Of a DNA stretch of 32,725 bases, positions 181 through 31,532 are shown piece by piece. Positions within the stretch are counted from its first letter, which is position 1; each line of letters begins with the position of its first letter. Under the pieces are notes generated by a model. The model saw only the letters and a program-made list of their open reading frames with translations, was not told the origin of the DNA and did not search any database. The stretch is from the NCBI GenBank assembly GCA_017628205.1, contig JAGBZO010000039.1, positions 99,279-132,003 of the forward strand, in the 5' to 3' direction. Made by a program: the position numbers and the translations under genes. The DNA comes from Duodenibacillus sp. (GTDB lineage: Bacteria > Pseudomonadota > Gammaproteobacteria > Burkholderiales > Burkholderiaceae_F).

Positions 181-266
181 ATTTTCAAATCACGTAGAAT
201 TGAATGATTGTCCCGTCCGCCGGATCGGACGCTCGGCTAGGAAAACAACACAAGGATTGATGCACC

Positions 267-2396
267 ATGAGCTCTCTCGACTTCATTATGAAACCCCGTG
301 CCATCGCCGTTGTCGGCGCCAGCACCAAGGCTCACACCATCGGCTCGGATATCATGAAGCGCCTGCAGGAATATGCATTCCAAGGTCCCATTTACCCCAT
401 CAATCCCAAGGGCGGCGTTATCGAAGGTTTGCCCGCTTACCCGTCCGTTTTGGACGTCCCCGGTCCGATCGATCTGGCCGTCATCGTCGTCAATTCCAAT
501 TTCGTTCTTCAAACCATCGATCAGTGTCATGAAAAAGGCATTCGCGGTTTGATCGTCATCTCGGCCGGTTTCAAGGAATCGGGCGCCAAGGGTGCCGAGC
601 TCGAAGCGGCTCTGCTTCAGAAAGTGCGCGATTACGACATGCGTTGCGTCGGCCCCAACTGTCTGGGCGCCGTCAATACACATCCGAGCGTACGGATGGA
701 TGCTTGCTTTGCCGAAGCTTTGCCTCTGCGCGGCGACATCGGTTTCGTGTCCCAGTCCGGCGCCTTGGGCGGCGGCATTTTGAACATCCTCAAAGACCTT
801 AACATTGGTTTCGCCCAGTTCATTTCCATCGGCAATCAAGCCGACGTCAATGCGGAAACCGCCATGGAATACTGGGAAAACGAAGAAGACGTCAAGCAGA
901 TCCTGCTTTACATGGAGTCCATCCAGAACCCCGCAAACTTCCGTCGTTTGGCCACGCGCATTTCCAAGAAAAAGCCGATCCTCGCACTCAAAGCCGGCCG
1001 TTCCGACGCGGGGGCCAGCGCCGCCAGTTCCCACACCGGTTCGTTGGCCGGTTCCGACAAGGCGGCCGACGCCCTGTTGCGTCAATCCGGCGTCATCCGT
1101 GAATTTTCCTTGCAAAAGCTCTTTGCAACGGCCAAGGTATTTTCCAATTGCCCGATTCCCAAGGGCAATCGCGTTGCCATCGTGACGAACTCCGGCGGCC
1201 CCGGCATTATGGCCACCGACGCCATTTGCGAACTGGGCATGCAAATGGCTCCGTTGTCGGACTCCACCAAAGAAACGTTGCGCAGCTTCCTTCCCGCCGC
1301 CGCTTCCGTCAAAAATCCCGTCGACATGATTGCCTCGGCTCCGCTCGAACATTATCGCCGCACGATGGAAACGGTTTTGGCCGACGACAACGTCGACATG
1401 GTGATCGCGATCTACCTGCCGTTCCTCGGTCTCAAGGACATCGACGTCGCCAAGTGCATGATGCAAGTGCGTGAAGAGCATCCCGACAAGCCCTTGCTCG
1501 GCGTCTTCATGACCACCAGCGACTTCTTCAGCACGCTTTCCGACATGGACGTGACCGTCCCCTTCTTCATGTACGCCGAAGAGGCCGTCGACGCCATGGC
1601 CCGTCTTGATCAGCAGCGTCGTTGGATCGAACGTCCCGTGGGCGAATGCGTTCGTTACGCTGTCGACCGCGACGCCGTCGTCGCCACCTTCAAACAGGCG
1701 CTTGCCGAAAATCGCGATCAGCTCACGACGCGCGAAAGCATGGACGTACTCAAAGCTTACGGCATTCGCATTTGCGGCTCGGGCTTTGCCCGCACGGCTG
1801 ACGAAGCGGTCGCCATCGCCGACGCCATCGGCTACCCGGTCGTAATGAAGATGACCTCCAAGACCACGTCGCACAAGACGGACGTCGGCGGCGTTCGCGT
1901 CAACATCACGTCCGCGCAAATGCTGCGCGAACAGTACGCCGACCTCATTGCCAAGCTCGAACAAAAGGGCTTGCTTGATGGTCTCGAAGGCGTCATTATT
2001 CAGGAAATGGTCAAGGGGTCGCGTGAAATGGTCTGCGGCATCGCCACGGATCCTCAGTACGGTCCGATGATGATGTTCGGCCTGGGTGGCGTCTTCATCG
2101 AAGTCATGAAAGACGTCACCTTCCGTTTGGCTCCGCTCACGAACGTCGATGCGGCCGAAATGGTGCGCTCCGTCAAGGCCTTCAAGTTGCTCGAAGGCGC
2201 CCGCGGCACGACGCCGGCCAATATCGATCAAATCGAAGAAACCTTGCTTCGTTTGTCGCAGCTTGTCACCGACTTCCCGTTCGTCGACGAATTGGACATC
2301 AATCCGCTCATGATCAGTGAGAAAAACGGCGAAGCCATCGCCGTTGACGGACGTATCAAGGTGCGTTTGGCCGAAGCTCAGGGGGCTTTGGCTTAA
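267..2396 (+). CDS. ADP-forming acetyl/acyl-CoA synthetase, fused alpha-beta type
   Basis: A 709-residue protein of the NDP-forming acyl-CoA synthetase family, which interconverts acyl-CoA + ADP + Pi and acid + CoA + ATP. Order of domains: CoA-binding Rossmann domain (about 1-130, with an early VGAS nucleotide loop), succinyl-CoA-ligase-like flavodoxin domains (about 150-460), and a C-terminal ATP-grasp domain (about 480-705). The Ser-His-Thr-Gly motif places the expected phospho-histidine at His256. The ATP-grasp part has a His-Lys-x-Asp-Val-Gly-Gly motif at His536, the position of the second phosphohistidine in archaeal ACD beta subunits. ATG 267 is preceded by AAGGA at 252-256. The gene stands alone between two terminators. 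It could serve acetate/ATP formation or a fermentative acid pathway; the substrate cannot be read from sequence. There is no C-terminal acetyltransferase domain, unlike Pat/YfiQ proteins. Confidence 0.85.
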   Translation: MSSLDFIMKPRAIAVVGASTKAHTIGSDIMKRLQEYAFQGPIYPINPKGGVIEGLPAYPSVLDVPGPIDLAVIVVNSNFVLQTIDQCHEKGIRGLIVISAGFKESGAKGAELEAALLQKVRDYDMRCVGPNCLGAVNTHPSVRMDACFAEALPLRGDIGFVSQSGALGGGILNILKDLNIGFAQFISIGNQADVNAETAMEYWENEEDVKQILLYMESIQNPANFRRLATRISKKKPILALKAGRSDAGASAASSHTGSLAGSDKAADALLRQSGVIREFSLQKLFATAKVFSNCPIPKGNRVAIVTNSGGPGIMATDAICELGMQMAPLSDSTKETLRSFLPAAASVKNPVDMIASAPLEHYRRTMETVLADDNVDMVIAIYLPFLGLKDIDVAKCMMQVREEHPDKPLLGVFMTTSDFFSTLSDMDVTVPFFMYAEEAVDAMARLDQQRRWIERPVGECVRYAVDRDAVVATFKQALAENRDQLTTRESMDVLKAYGIRICGSGFARTADEAVAIADAIGYPVVMKMTSKTTSHKTDVGGVRVNITSAQMLREQYADLIAKLEQKGLLDGLEGVIIQEMVKGSREMVCGIATDPQYGPMMMFGLGGVFIEVMKDVTFRLAPLTNVDAAEMVRSVKAFKLLEGARGTTPANIDQIEETLLRLSQLVTDFPFVDELDINPLMISEKNGEAIAVDGRIKVRLAEAQGALA

Positions 2397-2418
2397 CGCC
2401 GTTTGCCCGTTCGGCTGA

Positions 2419-2460
2419 AAAAAAAAAGCGTGATTCGATCATCGAATCACGCTTTTTTAT
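2419..2460. terminator. Bidirectional terminator between acyl-CoA synthetase gene and rnpB
   Basis: A perfect long stem (AAAAAGCGTGATTCGA pairing with TCGAATCACGCTTTTT) around a TCA loop, with an A-run on the left and a T-run on the right. It can end the + strand synthetase transcript and the - strand rnpB transcript. Confidence 0.9.
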
Positions 2461-2466
2461 GCAATA

Positions 2467-2787
2467 CGACGCAAAGTCCGCTTGTAAGCCGGATTCAGTG
2501 TCGGCGCGGCATGCCGTGCCGATGACAGTCATTCATCTAGACCGTTATTCGCATAACGGCTCGAGCCACCTACCCACAATCTCTCCCGAGCCGAGATCAA
2601 ACGATTGCTTATTTGGTGTTGCTCCCCGTAGAGATTGCCCGTTTCACCCGGACTTAACCGGCTCGTCTCTGTTGCTCTAATCCTCGCCTCACGGCGGACA
2701 GGCGTTACCTGCTACGGCGCTCTTCGGAGTCCGGACTTTCCTCGTGCAGAACCAGGCTGCCCACGACTGTCCGGCGAACTTTGCGTG
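2467..2787 (-). ncRNA. rnpB: RNase P RNA (M1 RNA, class A)
   Basis: The catalytic RNA of ribonuclease P, which trims the 5' leader from tRNA precursors. On the - strand the conserved GAGGAAAGTCCGGACTCC block lies at about 2726-2744, and the closing GAATCCGGCTTAC block near 2483-2495. The 5' and 3' ends pair as helix P1: ACGCAAAGTTCGC (2774-2786) with GCGGACTTTGCGT (2469-2481), 13 bp with one G-U. The P1 end, the promoter spacing and the downstream bidirectional terminator together set the ends. Length is about 320 bases, slightly below the E. coli RNA. The + strand reading frame that crosses this RNA is spurious. Confidence 0.95.
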
Positions 2788-2794
2788 AGGCGAG

Positions 2795-2823
2795 ACTTTA
2801 CCGACAAAAGCCGAAGTATGCAA
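2795..2823 (-). promoter_or_regulatory. rnpB promoter (sigma-70 type)
   Basis: On the - strand, TTGCAT (2818-2823), a 17-base spacer and TAAAGT (2795-2800). The predicted transcription start about 7-8 bases downstream coincides with the first base of RNase P helix P1, which supports the call. Confidence 0.75.
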
Positions 2824-2873
2824 GTCCGATGTCTCGTGCGTGGTGATTTTTTCGTTTTATTTTCAAGGATGTT

Positions 2874-2902
2874 CTGCCAGACTGCACTTTCTTTGGTATA
2901 TT
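2874..2902 (+). promoter_or_regulatory. Candidate promoter of the pagP-like gene
   Basis: CTGCCA (2874-2879), 17 bases, TATATT (2897-2902; 5 of 6 to consensus). The leader then contains a perfect GAGAGA-TT-TCTCTC inverted repeat at 2923-2936, 23 bases before the start codon. Confidence 0.4.
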
Positions 2903-2958
2903 TCGCGCCATGGAATCCTAGAGAGAGATTTCTCTCGATCAACAAAAAAGAAAAAAAC

Positions 2959-4071
2959 ATGAAGCGTTGTATTACTTCGATTGCCGCCGCCACTTTGACG
3001 GCGTTGTGCGGCAGCGCCCAAGCGGGCTTTCTCGATGCCTTCGTCGACACGTTGCCCGGCGGTTACACCTCCAACGGCGATACCTTCCTCGCCAATCAAT
3101 GGGAAGGCATGAAGTCCATTGTCAAAAAGGGCAATACGGGTTTGGTCATGGGTTTGCACACGAACCATCCCAGCTGGGACTACGAGAACCGTGACGAAGA
3201 AAACGCCTACCCGTACGGCGGCGGCATCATCCGCAGCGTCATCGACGATCAGGGCAACGAGCGCACGATGTTCATCATGGCCTTCTCCGATTCGCACTAT
3301 TCCCCCGAACCGATCATCGGTTACAGCTGGATGCACCGTTACAACCTCACGAACGACTTCCACCTGGGTGCCGGCTACATTCTCGGTTTGACCTTCCGCG
3401 AAGACTACAACTGGTTGCCCATTCCGACGCCGCTGCCCATCGTCGGCGCCGGCTACCGCAACGTCGACGTCTACATGACCTTCATCCCGATCTCGAACGT
3501 CTTCTTCTTCTACTCGACGATCAAGACCGATGACAAGGAATCGCGCATGTTCCCGTTGGAACCGAGCTCTCCCTTCTACAACAAGACGGAACTGTACGCG
3601 GCCGGCTTATGGGAAAAGACCGACTCGGCCACCGCCAAGGGCTTTATGGTGTCGTCCGATGCTGGCACGATGCTCGGCGCCCGCCACTTCCTGAACCAAA
3701 CGTGGGCGATCGACGTCAACTGGACGTCCAGCGAGCATGAAACCAACTACAACCGCGTCAAGGACCGCGATTGGAAGTTGTCGTCCTACTCGGTTTCCGC
3801 CCAGTACCACATGAATCTGACCTCCTCCGTGCGCATGCACGCCGGTGCCGGCGTAGCCTACGCCAAGCTCAAGCAAGAGGGCGGCTCGGCCTCTTACTCC
3901 GACGTTTATCCCGTTGTTCAAACGGGCTTTACCTGGGCCCCCTCGGCCAACACCCGCGTATTGGGCGGCATCAACGTCCACTTCCCGCGCTTTGGCGACG
4001 TGGGTAACAACGACGAAGTGTTCATGCCTTCGCCCGTACAGTTCTATCTCGGCGCCGGCGTCGCTTTCTAA
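2959..4071 (+). CDS. PagP-like lipid A acyltransferase fused to a second outer-membrane barrel-like domain
   Basis: A 370-residue secreted protein. Start ATG 2959 was chosen because it opens a classic signal peptide (residues 1-22, cleavage after Ala-Gln-Ala). The longer upstream frame runs through rnpB. Residues about 45-190 resemble PagP, the outer-membrane enzyme that moves a palmitoyl chain from phospholipid to lipid A. The proposed catalytic residues are His67, Asp111 and Ser112 (AFSDS motif), matching E. coli His33, Asp76 and Ser77. A Gly-Gly-Gly turn, the PEPIIGY segment and the NWLPIPTPLP segment also align by eye. E. coli PagP stops about here. This protein continues for about 175 more residues (195-370) with alternating aromatic/polar strands, roughly eight, ending in a terminal Phe as outer-membrane barrel proteins do. 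The second domain is OmpW/OmpX-sized but I could not assign a family. No clear Shine-Dalgarno; the leader is A-rich. PagP call good; fusion architecture read directly from one uninterrupted frame. Confidence 0.75.
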   Translation: MKRCITSIAAATLTALCGSAQAGFLDAFVDTLPGGYTSNGDTFLANQWEGMKSIVKKGNTGLVMGLHTNHPSWDYENRDEENAYPYGGGIIRSVIDDQGNERTMFIMAFSDSHYSPEPIIGYSWMHRYNLTNDFHLGAGYILGLTFREDYNWLPIPTPLPIVGAGYRNVDVYMTFIPISNVFFFYSTIKTDDKESRMFPLEPSSPFYNKTELYAAGLWEKTDSATAKGFMVSSDAGTMLGARHFLNQTWAIDVNWTSSEHETNYNRVKDRDWKLSSYSVSAQYHMNLTSSVRMHAGAGVAYAKLKQEGGSASYSDVYPVVQTGFTWAPSANTRVLGGINVHFPRFGDVGNNDEVFMPSPVQFYLGAGVAF

Positions 4072-4268: not shown

Positions 4269-5552
4269 ATGTCCACCAATGAAGCCTTGTTCGAACGTGC
4301 ACAAAAAACCATCCCCGGCGGTGTCAACTCCCCCGTCCGTGCTTTCAAGAGCGTCGGCGGCGCCCCGCGTTTCATCGAACGCGCCAACGGTCCGTTCATG
4401 TGGGATGCGGAAGGCAAGCGTTACATCGATTACATTGGCTCTTGGGGTCCGATGATCCTCGGTCACAATCACCCGGCCGTCATCGAGGCCGTTGAGAAGG
4501 CCGTCACCAAGGGCCTGTCTTTCGGCGCCGCCACCGAAGGCGAAATCGAAATCGCAGAAGAAGTCTGCAGCATCATGCCCAACATCGAACAAGTGCGATT
4601 CGTCAGCTCCGGAACCGAAGCCGGCATGAGCGCCATCCGTCTGGCCCGCGGTTACACCGGTCGCAACAAGATCGTTAAGTTCGAAGGTTGCTATCACGGT
4701 CACTCCGACAGCTTGTTGGTCAAGGCCGGCTCCGGTTTGCTTACCTTCGGCAACCCCTCTTCATCCGGCGTTCCCGTCGGCACGACCGAACACACTTTGG
4801 TATTGGAATACAACAACCCGCAACAGCTGCACGACTGCTTCCGTCAGTTCGGCGACGACATCGCCTGCGTTATCGTCGAAGCCGTTGCCGGCAACATGAA
4901 CATGATTCCCGCCACGCAGGAATTCATGGACACCATGCGCGCTTTGTGCACGCAGTACGGCGCCTTGTTGATCGTGGACGAAGTCATGACCGGTTTCCGC
5001 GTTGCGCTCAAGGGCGCCCAGTCCCTTTACAACGTTCAACCCGACATCACCATGCTCGGCAAGGTCATCGGCGGCGGTTTGCCCGTCGCCGCATTCGGCG
5101 GTCGCAAGGAGGTCATGAGCAAGATCGCTCCGCTCGGCTCCGTCTATCAGGCCGGCACGTTGTCCGGCAACCCGGTCGCCGTCGCATGCGGCATGGCCAC
5201 GTTGAAGGAAATTCAAAAGCCCGGTTTCTACGAGGCGCTCTCGGCTCAGACGCAAAAACTCACCAAGGGTCTGACCGAAGTCGCTCAGCAAGCCGGCGTC
5301 GACTTCTGCACCCGTTCCATCGGCGGCATGATGGGCTTGTTCTTCCTGCCCGAACTTCCCAACGGCTTTAACGACGTCATGAAGTGCGATCCGGCCGTGT
5401 TCGGCACGTTCTTCAACGCCATGCTCGATCGCGGCGTTTACCTGGCTCCCTCCATCTTTGAAGCGGGCTTTGTCTCGGCCGCTCATACCGACGAGGTGAT
5501 CGAAGAAACCTTGACGGCTGCACGCGAATCGTTTGCGCTGCTCAATCGTTAA
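4269..5552 (+). CDS. hemL: Glutamate-1-semialdehyde 2,1-aminomutase
   Basis: Converts glutamate-1-semialdehyde to 5-aminolevulinate, the committed step of C5-pathway tetrapyrrole synthesis, in the cytoplasm with PLP. 427 residues, the normal length. Visible signatures: [11 protein letters not shown] near the N-terminus, the SSGTEA substrate loop at about 113-118, Asp-Glu-Val-Met at 237-240, and the PLP lysine Lys265 in [16 protein letters not shown] at 4256-4260 sits 8 bases before ATG 4269. The dsbD-type gene begins 24 bases after its stop without a terminator, so the two are probably co-transcribed. Heme supply and thiol transfer are both needed for cytochrome maturation, so the pairing is sensible but not proof of a shared role. 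Confidence 0.96.
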
Positions 5553-22921: not shown

Positions 22922-24046
22922 TTAATCGTTTGCTCCAGACCGAGCGTGTTTGCGTAATACTAACCGAACGTCAGGCCCAATCCTATCGACGCAATGGAAA
23001 TTCCAACGAAGAATCTGATCCATTTGTTCAAATCGGGGCAATTGCGCCGCCCCTCGCCCTTCGCCCATCAGCAACGGAGCGACATAATAAATCAACTCGT
23101 CGACCAAGTCGGCCTGCAAAAGCCCTCCGTTCAATCCGGCCCCCGCCTCCACATGCAAAACGTTGATCTCTCGAGAGCCGATGTCGCGAATGACGGCCTG
23201 CAGATCCAAACGGCCCTCCGCATCGCTCGGCATGGCCTTCACTTCGGCACCGACACCCTCGAGAGCCGCAACGCGATCCTTGGGCGCGGCGGCCGAAACG
23301 TAAATCGTACAGGGGGCTCCCCGAAGAATCTTTGCCGATACGGGCGTGCGGGCCATTGTATCGAGAATGAACTTGACCGGCTGCGGACAATCTTCATCCA
23401 ACCGAACGTTCATTTGCGGATCATCCGCCAAAACGGTGCCGATACCGGTCAGGATCCCTTGAGCAAAGGAGCGTTGCACATGTCCGTCTCGACGGGCTTC
23501 GGCAGACGTAATCCATTGGCTAACACCGTTAAGCAACGCTGTGCGACCGTCCAATCCCGCCGCCACTTTCAGACGAATCCACGGCTTGCCGGTTCGCATG
23601 CGAGTCAAAAAACCGATATTCGACTCGATGGCTTCTTTCTCACAAACACCGACAACAACGTCAAGACCGGCCTGACGCAACAACTCGCAACCGCGACCGG
23701 CAACGAGCGGATTGGGATCCAAGGTACCGACAACAACGCGAGAGATGCCTTCGTCAATCAGCCGTAATGCACACGGCGGCGTACGGCCGTAATGGGAGCA
23801 GGGCTCCAATGTCACGTAGGCCGTCGCTCCCCTCAAATCCACTGCATTGGCTCGGGCCGTCTCGATCGCATCGATCTCGGCATGACGACCGCCGGGACGT
23901 TGCGTGAAACCGCGAGCCAACTCTTTGCCGTCTTTAACCAAAACGCAACCGACGGCCGGATTGGGCGGGGCAATGCGTTGCCCGCCGCAAGCCGCACGAA
24001 TCGCCTCGCGCATCCATTGGATGTCACGCTGTTGTTGTTCCGACAT
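22922..24046 (-). CDS. ribD: Bifunctional riboflavin deaminase/reductase
   Basis: Carries out the second and third steps of riboflavin synthesis. 374 residues: an N-terminal cytidine-deaminase-like zinc domain (about 1-145) with His55-Ala-Glu57 and the PCSHYGRTPPC motif (Cys83, Cys92), then an NADPH-dependent reductase domain (about 150-370). GGAGTCC precedes ATG 24046, only 3 bases after the nrdR stop, so the genes are co-transcribed. Confidence 0.96.
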   Translation of the reverse strand: MSEQQQRDIQWMREAIRAACGGQRIAPPNPAVGCVLVKDGKELARGFTQRPGGRHAEIDAIETARANAVDLRGATAYVTLEPCSHYGRTPPCALRLIDEGISRVVVGTLDPNPLVAGRGCELLRQAGLDVVVGVCEKEAIESNIGFLTRMRTGKPWIRLKVAAGLDGRTALLNGVSQWITSAEARRDGHVQRSFAQGILTGIGTVLADDPQMNVRLDEDCPQPVKFILDTMARTPVSAKILRGAPCTIYVSAAAPKDRVAALEGVGAEVKAMPSDAEGRLDLQAVIRDIGSREINVLHVEAGAGLNGGLLQADLVDELIYYVAPLLMGEGRGAAQLPRFEQMDQILRWNFHCVDRIGPDVRLVLRKHARSGAND

Positions 24047-24049
24047 GGA

Positions 24050-24505
24050 CTAGGACTCCGTCTCGAGCTCTCGCAACAGTTGAAAAAAACCTTCGGGATT
24101 GTCAACGTTGAAGTAGACGCTGGCAAAACGGATGTAGGCGACGGAATCGAGCTTTTTAAGCTCTTCCAAGACAAACTCGCCGACACGACTGGACATCACT
24201 TCTCTTTCGCCCAACGTCCGCAAACGTTGTTCGATGGCGCCGATGGCCTCTTCAACGCGTTCGTTGTTCACGGGACGTTTTCTCAAAGCCAATCGCATGG
24301 AACCGCGAATCTTTTCTCGATCGTACTCACGGCGCGCCCCGGTTCGTTTGACGATCAGCGGCATGTTCAATTCAACGCGTTCGAACGTCGTAAAACGCTT
24401 GCCGCACGCGGAACACTGACGGCGACGTCGAATGGAATAGCCGTCGTCACTGGCGCGCGAATCAATCACGGCCGAATCTTTTTCTTTGCAGAAAGGACAT
24501 CTCAT
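24050..24505 (-). CDS. nrdR: Ribonucleotide-reductase repressor NrdR
   Basis: A nucleotide-sensing repressor of nrd genes. 151 residues: an N-terminal zinc ribbon with Cys3-x2-Cys6 and Cys31-x2-Cys34, followed by an ATP-cone domain (about 49-139; the VKRTGARREYDREKIRGSM segment is characteristic). ATG 24505 follows GGGGGA. It lies 93 bases after glyA and directly upstream of ribD, an order common in proteobacteria. No NrdR box is visible in the window. Confidence 0.97.
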   Translation of the reverse strand: MRCPFCKEKDSAVIDSRASDDGYSIRRRRQCSACGKRFTTFERVELNMPLIVKRTGARREYDREKIRGSMRLALRKRPVNNERVEEAIGAIEQRLRTLGEREVMSSRVGEFVLEELKKLDSVAYIRFASVYFNVDNPEGFFQLLRELETES

Positions 24506-24598
24506 GCCTATCCCCCTGGTCTGTTTGCTCGTGAGCGGCGATCGGTCGAATCGACGCTGGAACTTTTATTTTACCGCCGAGAGAGCGCCTCTGTCCGC

Positions 24599-25870
24599 TC
24601 AAACCGCGTAGACGGGATAGCGAGAGGTCAATTCCTGTACCTGAGCCTTAACCCGTTGCAATACGGACTCATCTTCAGGGTTGTCCAAAACGTCGGCAAT
24701 CCAATGACCGATTTGACGGCATTGTTCGACACCGAAGCCTCGCGTCGTGACCGCCGGCGTACCGAGTCGAATACCGGACGTCACGAAGGGCGACTGCGGA
24801 TCGTTATGGATGGAATTCTTGTTCACCGTGATGCAAACCTGTCCGAGCAAGGCTTCCGCTTGCTTGCCCGTGAGATTTTTCGCTCGCAGATCGACCAACA
24901 TCACATGACTTTGGGTACCGCCCGAGACAATACGCAGACCACGTTCGGTCAACACGTCGGCCAAGGCCTTTGCATTGAGCTTCACCTGTTGGCCGTAGAC
25001 TTTAAATTCGGGGGAGAGAGCTTCGCCGAAAGCGATGGCCTTACCGGCGATGACATGCATCAGCGGACCGCCCTGCAGGCCGGGGAACACGGCCGTATTC
25101 AGTTGCTTTTCCAACTCGGGACGAACAAAAATAACGCCGCCGCGAGGCCCGCGCAAGCTCTTGTGCGTCGTGGTCGTCACAATGTCGGCGTGTCCGAAGG
25201 GAGAGGGATAAACACCGGCAGCGATCAGGCCGGCGTAGTGAGCCATGTCAACCATGAGGAGCGCGCCGACGGATCGGGCGATCTTGGCGAATCGGGCGAA
25301 ATCGATTTCCAAGGAATAGGCCGACGCACCGGCGATAATCATTTTGGGCTTGTGCTGACGAGCCAATGCCTCGATTTCATCGTAATCAAGCGCTTCGTTG
25401 TCATCGCGAACGCCATAAGGAACGACGTTGTAGTAACGACCGGAGAAATTAAGCTTCATGCCGTGGGTCAAATGCCCGCCGTCGGCCAAGCTCATCCCCA
25501 TCACGGTATCGCCCGGCTGCAAAAACGCCATGAACACGGCCTCGTTGGCCTGCGCTCCCGAATGCGGTTGCACGTTGACCGCCATCTCCACGCCCAAAGG
25601 CTCGCAGAACAAACGCTTGGCACGATCTATCGCCAAACATTCCACGCGATCGACGTTTTCGCAACCGCCGTAATAGCGCTTCCCCGGATAGCCTTCGGCA
25701 TACTTGTTCGTCATGACGCACCCCTGCGCCTGCATGACGGCCGAGCTCGTGTAGTTTTCCGATGCAATCAACTCAATGTGTTGCTCTTGGCGCAAACGCT
25801 CCGCTTGGATTGCGTTCCAAACGTCGACGTCGACATATTGCATGTCGGAAGTCAAAGTACGGTTGTTCAT
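24599..25870 (-). CDS. glyA: Serine hydroxymethyltransferase
   Basis: Interconverts serine and glycine, loading one-carbon units on tetrahydrofolate; PLP enzyme in the cytoplasm. 423 residues. Visible: [10 protein letters not shown] (33-42), [16 protein letters not shown] (56-71), and the PLP lysine Lys237 in [14 protein letters not shown]. The start at 25870 follows GAGGT. An inner Met10 would give a length closer to the usual 415, so a few residues at the N-terminus are uncertain. Its short leader carries a palindrome and a T-run that look regulatory. Confidence 0.96.
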
Positions 25871-25888
25871 GATGTGACCTCAAATAGC

Positions 25889-25943
25889 AAAAAAAAACAA
25901 ATCTCGTCATAGACCGATCAACGATCGGTCCCTATTTGTTTTT
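25889..25943 (-). promoter_or_regulatory. Nested hairpin with T-run just upstream of glyA: terminator or attenuator
   Basis: On the - strand, an outer stem (AAAAACAAAT with ATTTGTTTTT) encloses a perfect inner palindrome GACCGATC-GTT-GATCGGTC, and the outer arm runs into nine T. It lies 19-73 bases before the glyA start. It can end the upstream radical-SAM transcript. No room remains for a promoter between it and glyA, so glyA transcripts probably pass through it. Confidence 0.6.
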
Positions 25944-29551: not shown

Positions 29552-29627
29552 TCCTCGATAGCTCAGTCGGTAGAGCAACGGACTGTTAATCCGTGGGTCG
29601 TTGGTTCGAGCCCAACTCGAGGAGCCA
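29552..29627 (+). tRNA. tRNA-Asn (GTT), copy 1
   Basis: 76 bases with encoded CCA. Acceptor stem TCCTCGA / TCGAGGA; anticodon stem ACGGA / TCCGT; anticodon GTT at 29585-29587; T-loop GTTCGAG. All arms fold. It is identical to the copy at 29703. Confidence 0.97.
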
Positions 29628-29702: not shown

Positions 29703-29778
29703 TCCTCGATAGCTCAGTCGGTAGAGCAACGGACTGTTAATCCGTGGGTCGTTGGTTCGAGCCCAACTCGAGGAGCCA
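29703..29778 (+). tRNA. tRNA-Asn (GTT), copy 2
   Basis: 76 bases, identical to copy 1 including CCA and anticodon GTT (29736-29738). No separate promoter was seen in the spacer, so both are probably cut from one transcript. Confidence 0.97.
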
Positions 29779-30395: not shown

Positions 30396-31532
30396 ATGTT
30401 CAAATCGACATTTAAATCTGCAGTTATCGAAGCATGCGTGTTGGTGGCTTCCCATACGTTTACGGCTCATACTTTCGAAAAGTTTTGGGGAAAAGTTTCT
30501 CCAAAACTGCAAGAAGGCGTTTCGTACCTCGAAAAGCATGATGCGGAGAAACTCACAAACGACAAATCTTTTCTTGAACTAGTGACGTTCCGCGACAGTA
30601 AGATGGCTCGCATTATCAACAGCTGTCTTCAGGATTTCCTCTCCTCCGAGATTGTCGATCTGATCGATCAAGTCCAAAAAATTCAGGATCAGATTGCCGA
30701 AAGAAAGACGCGCATGAACGCCTGGCGTCTCGGTCTGATTTCCGCACCGAGCACCTCGATCAATCCGTTGAGAAAAACGCGTGCCAAGCTCTATACGCGC
30801 ATTAAAAAAGAACAAGCCGGCATCGATCACGATCTCAAGCAAATTGAGGTCTTGAAGTCTCAGGCACAAGAAAAATTGCATGCGGCCGGAATTGAACTGA
30901 CGATCGATCAGCTTGACGGATTGCTCTACACGGCCGAAGGCGCCGAACTCGCGCAAGTCATGGCCGTCGCGGAGAACATCAAAAAGATTCAGGCTCAGCT
31001 CGGAGCCAATCTTGAACAACCGGACACGAGCGGCGAACAAGTCAAAACGTACACCGGCTTTTTAATGATGAGCTATCGCGTCTATATCGAAGCGATCGAG
31101 CGAGCCGTGAGAGCTATCGAAAAGACCTATCTAGTCAAACTGAACGATCTGTCCGAACAAGCCAACGAGCAGATCCTTCGCGCTAAGGAATTGTTTGAGC
31201 AATCGAAAAAGACGAGTACGATCGCACAGAACAATATTGAACTTAACGCGCAAACGATTCGTTTGATCAACGCCTACCGCGCCCATCTGACGGGACGTTT
31301 GATCGACCTGAAAAAGTTAAACAAGGAAATGTTTATCAACTACGAAGTGGCCGTCAATACCTACCGAACCGTAAAGGTCGGCGCTGAATTGATTGACGTT
31401 ATCAGCGCTTCTGAAAAAGACATTCAAAGCGTGTTCAATTTTGAGCCGCCCAAACTCGCCAGCTTTTACGACGAGGGCCTGAAAACGGAATTCGAACGCA
31501 TGACACGCAAGCTCAAAGGCGTAGAAGCCTAA
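30396..31532 (+). CDS. Uncharacterised helical coiled-coil protein
   Basis: 378 residues, family not recognised. Almost entirely helical in character, with heptad-like stretches at about 84-110, 125-165, 185-205 and 225-315. There is no signal peptide, clear membrane segment or cysteine motif (only Cys14 and Cys77). A conserved-looking ending (FNFEPPKLASFYDEGLKTEFERMTRKL, about 348-373) contrasts with the repetitive centre and may be a binding module; I give it only as an observed segment. The ribosome site before ATG 30396 is weak, so the start may lie elsewhere, for example at an internal Met. The gene has its own strong terminator and lies between a tRNA cluster and a transporter gene. It might take part in membrane or envelope stress, but that is a guess. 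Confidence 0.7.
   Translation: MFKSTFKSAVIEACVLVASHTFTAHTFEKFWGKVSPKLQEGVSYLEKHDAEKLTNDKSFLELVTFRDSKMARIINSCLQDFLSSEIVDLIDQVQKIQDQIAERKTRMNAWRLGLISAPSTSINPLRKTRAKLYTRIKKEQAGIDHDLKQIEVLKSQAQEKLHAAGIELTIDQLDGLLYTAEGAELAQVMAVAENIKKIQAQLGANLEQPDTSGEQVKTYTGFLMMSYRVYIEAIERAVRAIEKTYLVKLNDLSEQANEQILRAKELFEQSKKTSTIAQNNIELNAQTIRLINAYRAHLTGRLIDLKKLNKEMFINYEVAVNTYRTVKVGAELIDVISASEKDIQSVFNFEPPKLASFYDEGLKTEFERMTRKLKGVEA

Follow-up and report, generated by a model that had tools for sequence, protein, structure and literature searches.

PagP, a lipid A palmitoyltransferase (PF07017), serves as a standard model in studies of outer-membrane enzymes and of folding, with catalytic roles for His33, Asp76 and Ser77 and with a lumen and side openings that depend on a closed 8-strand barrel. 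It is described as a single 8-strand barrel in the available passages of PMC2887491. Outer-membrane proteins that contain more than one barrel are a known class, an example of which is GfcD, for which the excerpted text of PMC11494523 gives 12 and 13 predicted strands with a periplasmic middle domain. The DNA analysed here, referred to as the window, is a 32,725-nucleotide stretch of contig JAGBZO010000039.1 from Duodenibacillus sp. (assembly GCA_017628205.1), and it includes a gene in which a PagP domain is followed, within the same chain, by an OmpW/AlkL-like domain. The likeness to GfcD consists of two barrel domains in one chain, which in the fusion are assigned by homology, but here an enzyme barrel is connected to an OmpW-like barrel through a short linker. 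Among the literature matches listed none describes a PagP-OmpW fusion; PagP and Sutterella are named together in one paper, on oral and gut microbiomes, that is also among them. The product of this gene is probably a PagP that is active and that has a sealed OmpW-like barrel permanently tethered to it as a neighbour. The features of the gene are as follows.

2959..4071, + strand: PagP-OmpW-like fusion gene, 370 amino acids plus stop (open frame and full-length profile match)
2959..3024, + strand: putative signal peptide, residues 1-22, with a tentative cleavage site after AQA (judged by eye)
3025..3111, + strand: N-terminal extension, residues 23-51, with the stretch T-x-P-x-G (alignments)
3112..3528, + strand: PagP barrel, residues 52-190, of which Pfam covers 52-182 (Pfam, PDB, hhalign)
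3166..3168, + strand: His70, equivalent of E. coli PagP His33 (alignment; 35/35 fusions)
3289..3294, + strand: Asp111-Ser112, equivalents of E. coli Asp76-Ser77 (alignment; 35/35 fusions)
3325..3327, + strand: Ser123, at the position of E. coli Gly88 (alignment)
3529..3585, + strand: linker, residues 191-209, presumably periplasmic, directly after the last PagP strand (alignment)
3586..4068, + strand: OmpW/AlkL-like barrel, residues 210-370, with a terminal Phe in 35/35 fusions (profile homology)

A reading of this DNA made from the letters alone (the sequence-only reading) had described an uninterrupted frame of 370 residues composed of a PagP-like half and a further, barrel-like half whose final residue is Phe, and all three elements of this description were borne out. 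The frame runs unbroken on the + strand from the ATG at 2959 through 370 codons, with a signal-peptide-like start and Phe as its last residue, to the stop that ends at 4071. When the whole protein was compared with Pfam, residues 52-182 matched PagP (PF07017) with 102.3 bits against a curated cut-off of 24. The NCBIfam PagP profile was also matched, below its equivalog cut-off, a PDB sequence search gave E 3e-20 for two sequences of E. coli PagP, and hhalign aligned the PagP half with E. coli PagP (b0622) at 99.8% over 132 columns.

The active site was located by aligning the window protein with E. coli PagP and four single-domain outgroups, and conservation of each residue was counted over 35 distinct full-length fusions. 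His70, Asp111 and Ser112 align with E. coli His33, Asp76 and Ser77, and each is invariant (35/35). The sequence-only reading had therefore named Asp111 and Ser112 correctly, while its choice of His67 as the catalytic histidine was wrong: position 67 is Tyr in 30 of the 35 fusions and His in just one, the window protein itself. The equivalents of Arg114 and Pro127 are kept in all 35 and that of Pro144 in 33. The position of Gly88, the floor of the PagP hydrocarbon ruler, is occupied by Ala in 16 fusions, Gly in 8, Ser in 7 and Gln in 4; the Ser123 found there in the window weakly suggests an acyl chain slightly shorter than palmitate. On the basis of these alignments the first half can be considered a catalytically complete PagP, with a probable activity on lipid A. 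It resembles the E. coli enzyme in its barrel profile, its His/Asp/Ser residues and its Arg114 and Pro127 equivalents, and it differs from it in the Ser at the ruler Gly position, in the additional N-terminal T-x-P-x-G, and in a chain that does not stop at the last PagP strand but goes on to a second barrel. About 180 residues follow PagP in the window, versus 0-1 in the 15 single-domain rows available for comparison (14 different proteins, one of them a 111-residue piece). The N-terminal stretch is well kept among the 35 fusions (T31 in 32, P33 in 34, G35 in 32), was not seen in E. coli PagP or in the four single-domain outgroups aligned, and may contact the second barrel.

Profile homology relates the second half to the OmpW/AlkL barrels. 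In the scan of the whole protein residues 226-370 came close to the generic outer-membrane barrel of Pfam (27.8 against a cut-off of 28.7), and when the second half was scanned alone it scored 30.1 against 28.7 for this family and 24.0 against 24 for OmpW. At E 0.01, 21 second halves gave matches to the generic barrel in 21/21 cases and to OmpW in 12/21, with OmpA matched by 4 as well. The profile built from these 21 second halves, when compared with the PDB, found AlkL (7e-8), OmpW (1e-3), NspA (4e-3) and OmpA (0.02). With hhalign the same profile matched E. coli OmpW alone at 92% (E 5.5e-7, 145 columns), versus 47% over 40 columns for the control OmpX and 41% over 92 columns for the control OmpA. 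Against six aligned OmpW sequences the figure was 99.2% (E 2.4e-19, 146 columns reaching the last residue), a value that is biased upward because the search that supplied five of the six used the same second-half profile. An internal duplication of PagP was ruled out as the origin of the second domain, since the two halves do not match each other (0.4%).

These comparisons also bear on how many barrels the chain would form. The sequence-only reading had offered either PagP continuous with a second barrel, which agrees with the homologies, or one larger merged barrel, which does not fare as well. Fused 8-strand barrels have been turned into larger pores in the laboratory, a precedent for a single barrel of 16 strands, but each half of the fusion matches, to about its end, a separate family with solved closed 8-strand barrels, and the residues of the PagP lumen and side openings are mostly kept; we consider a merged barrel very improbable and regard two separate closed barrels as the arrangement indicated by homology.

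OprG/OmpW barrels are reported, in the portion of PMC2993939 consulted, to have a lateral opening between strands 3 and 4, beside conserved prolines. The prolines examined were Pro69 and Pro94, together with the less strict Pro95. The window protein has Ser276 at Pro94, Tyr277 at Pro95 and a gap at the position of Pro69, the last being a limited marker, as a proline occurs there in just 3 of the 6 OmpW sequences aligned. Among the 35 fusions a Pro94-like residue is found in four (L018, L019, L020 and L027) and is lost in 31, including the window, and a Pro95-like residue is found in none. Thus, although the second half aligns with OmpW strands 2-8 and has AlkL and OmpW as its best solved matches, it differs from the OmpW/AlkL/OprG family (PF03922) in being fused to PagP and in having mostly lost the lateral-opening prolines, and for the latter reason we classify it as an OmpW relative rather than as a working OmpW channel. 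Since the Pro94-like and Pro95-like residues are lost and the Pro69 position is gapped, the lateral opening has probably disappeared in this species and the second barrel is read as a sealed neighbour. For the same reason, of the functions that the sequence-only reading had proposed for this half, positioning the enzyme or binding a partner fit better than forming a pore, the lateral-opening proline being lost in 31 of the 35 fusions. These residues also bear on the idea that the OmpW/AlkL-like barrel supplies substrate, taking up or releasing a hydrophobic molecule such as a phospholipid, a fatty acid or a bile acid through its side so that it enters the outer leaflet beside the PagP active site. 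That AlkL is the best solved match of the second half, and that the four fusions with a Pro94-like residue form one tree branch beside the other 31, would agree with such a supply; the loss of the proline in those 31 and the gap in the window speak against it, and we think it quite improbable. OmpW is not absent from the window's family, as 5 of its 67 genomes (G076, G070, G030, G016 and, at a second place, G021) gave PF03922 matches that lie outside any fusion frame; only G021 of these five also has the fusion.

The sequence-only reading had suggested a search for the same fusion in related genomes. PagP was found at 41 places in 40 of the 67 genomes of the window's family, representing 10 of its 18 genera, and at all 41 places the match to the 378-position full-length fusion profile starts no later than position 17 and continues to the end; one of these places (G086) has an internal stop. 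PagP without the second domain was found at 0 of the 41 PagP places in the family. The repeated occurrence of the full-length match in 40 of the 67 genomes and 10 genera excludes a sequencing or assembly join of two genes, an explanation that is further opposed by the named assembly of Candidatus Aphodousia faecipullorum (Sutterellaceae; L025), whose coding sequence is identical to that of family member G062 (L108), and that we regard as having practically no weight. One locus (L069, genome G085) has two complete fusion genes in tandem, with frames at about 277-1863 and 1969-3294.

Outside the family the two domains were not found together. A sample of 399 genomes from the order had a PagP match in 58, 50 of them outside the family (G251 being below the curated cut-off), and a sample of 369 genomes from the class had PagP in 15, that is, 14 besides the window's own. 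A frame holding both domains was found in 0 of these 64 PagP-bearing genomes sampled outside the family; both samples were drawn from larger groups, so that the fusion may exist elsewhere. G159 was considered as an outside-family fusion because of its 417-amino-acid frame, and it was rejected as PagP is at the end of this frame (residues 267-411). Because some outside-family PagP frames are broken or partial (e.g. G368, G611, G100), the surroundings of 19 outside-family PagP loci were searched piecewise. The second domain was near 0 of the 19, while both fusion controls (L001 and L025) were found; at one of the 19, L148, even PagP was not found again by this search. No relative was found in viral contigs, and a short-pattern scan of genome contigs gave one relative only, which is a limit of those patterns.

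In a quick tree of the PagP part that included the 15 single-domain rows, all 35 fusions are located on one side of a branch with a support of 92, a value that is not decisive, the nearest single-domain row (L021) having a long branch flagged by the tree program. This topology is consistent with a single fusion event, no later than the base of that part of the family which has PagP. Judged from their sequences, the halves co-evolve: their pairwise distances correlate with a Mantel r of 0.876 over 595 pairs, with 0 of 2000 permutations as high, and divergence in the second half is about 1.5 times that in the PagP half. The ratio of nonsynonymous to synonymous substitution rates (dN/dS) was finite in both halves in 8 of 13 close pairs. 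The PagP values are 0.01-0.29 and those of the second half 0.04-0.19, and they are rough in four of the eight (dS >1); in the remaining five pairs one half or both had reached saturation. Because dN/dS is low in both, both halves are probably under purifying selection.

The sequence of events that we favour for the active PagP and its sealed neighbour can be outlined as follows. The fusion would be secreted and assembled by the β-barrel assembly machinery (BAM) as a two-barrel outer-membrane protein, the terminal Phe acting as the expected barrel-assembly signal that closes the chain. The PagP barrel would use phospholipid stranded in the outer leaflet as the donor of an acyl chain, with lipid A or a related acceptor as its recipient. 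Beyond the short linker the chain would form a further 8-strand barrel, without catalytic function and of OmpW/AlkL-family descent, that would remain next to PagP as a permanent neighbour, in putative contact with it. In this position the sealed barrel could stabilise PagP and set which lipids reach its side openings, so that a tethered barrel would substitute for chance encounters of PagP with other barrels. According to the parts of PMC7617971 available, PagP in liposomes keeps only about 35% and 45% of its activity in the presence of OmpA or of the OmpA barrel, and OmpX was without effect. The tuning of PagP by the second barrel would be analogous. A more specific version, which is possible and which we put forward tentatively, is that the second half is a hard-wired regulatory barrel, that is, a former OmpW channel that was closed and now controls both PagP lipid access and acyl-chain choice, with tethering replacing transient contacts.

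Several observations weigh against the tethered-neighbour proposal. In the same parts of PMC7617971 the tuning of PagP by OmpA is inhibitory, and AlphaFold gave no confident contact between the two proteins. The score with the NCBIfam PagP equivalog PRK11045 was 108.7, below its 155-bit cut-off, and for this reason the window protein is not classified as an E. coli-type PagP equivalog. The equivalent of Pro28, which is Pro in 31 of the 35 fusions, is Gly65 in the window, and therefore one PagP side opening may differ in this protein. In the whole-protein scan residues 224-306 scored 22.0 with Pfam OmpW (PF03922), below the cut-off of 24, and the profile alignment spans OmpW strands 2-8 to the terminal Phe and leaves strand 1 uncovered, its equivalent having been placed by eye at residues 210-222. 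Finally, an amphipathicity strand scan gave too much noise for a count of 16 strands and was not used.

The fusion gene is located between two neighbours:

2469..2782, - strand: rnpB (RNase P RNA), divergent, with the fusion gene starting 176 bp away
4269..5552, + strand: hemL-like gene, downstream neighbour of the fusion gene

The latter is presumably hemL, coding for glutamate-1-semialdehyde aminomutase, a name that its sequence suggests. The open frame of the fusion reaches back to 2635, and much of its upstream part is antisense read-through of rnpB. Within short flanks, rnpB was within reach in 10 of the 17 profile members examined out of 21 (the window and 9 of 16 others), and also in L069; hemL was in the flank at 14 of 21 loci and downstream in the 13 with positions. 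Four same-genus genomes that lack the gene (G002, G006, G008 and G009) have rnpB 221-338 bp from hemL, and this slot, empty in 4/4, indicates that the fusion gene is apparently dispensable; a fifth gene-less genome of the genus, G001, is outside this count. In six further loci of other genera examined rnpB was not found near hemL.

The empty slot is also pertinent to whether the two halves work together. They could be two unrelated outer-membrane functions in one chain, with the OmpW-like barrel doing its own job on small solutes or hydrophobic compounds and the fusion merely fixing a 1:1 dose. Solan (2021), the survey that defined the multi-barrel class and that PMC11494523 cites, reportedly stresses lineage-specific fusions of 8-strand barrels, so that such a combination would follow a known pattern, and the contact between the halves is putative. 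Against this, no half survives alone in the four empty slots, and PagP is without the second domain at none of its places in the family. On balance we consider two independent functions unlikely, and favour a PagP with its tethered, sealed neighbour.

Elsewhere in the window two identical tRNA-Asn genes are located at 29552-29627 and 29703-29778, 75 bp apart, and a 378-amino-acid open frame at 30396-31532 (+ strand) appears helix-rich by eye. Frames of 664 and 706 amino acids at 237-2231 (- strand) and 23792-25912 (+ strand), respectively, are opposite likely real genes and are probably a codon-usage effect.

The PagP of this family, fused at 41 of 41 places, would constitute a natural covalent test of the tuning of an outer-membrane enzyme by a neighbour barrel, a question opened by the lowering of PagP activity by OmpA described in the available text of PMC7617971. 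The fusion may also bear on endotoxin structure in the Sutterellaceae, the family of the named relative Candidatus Aphodousia faecipullorum.
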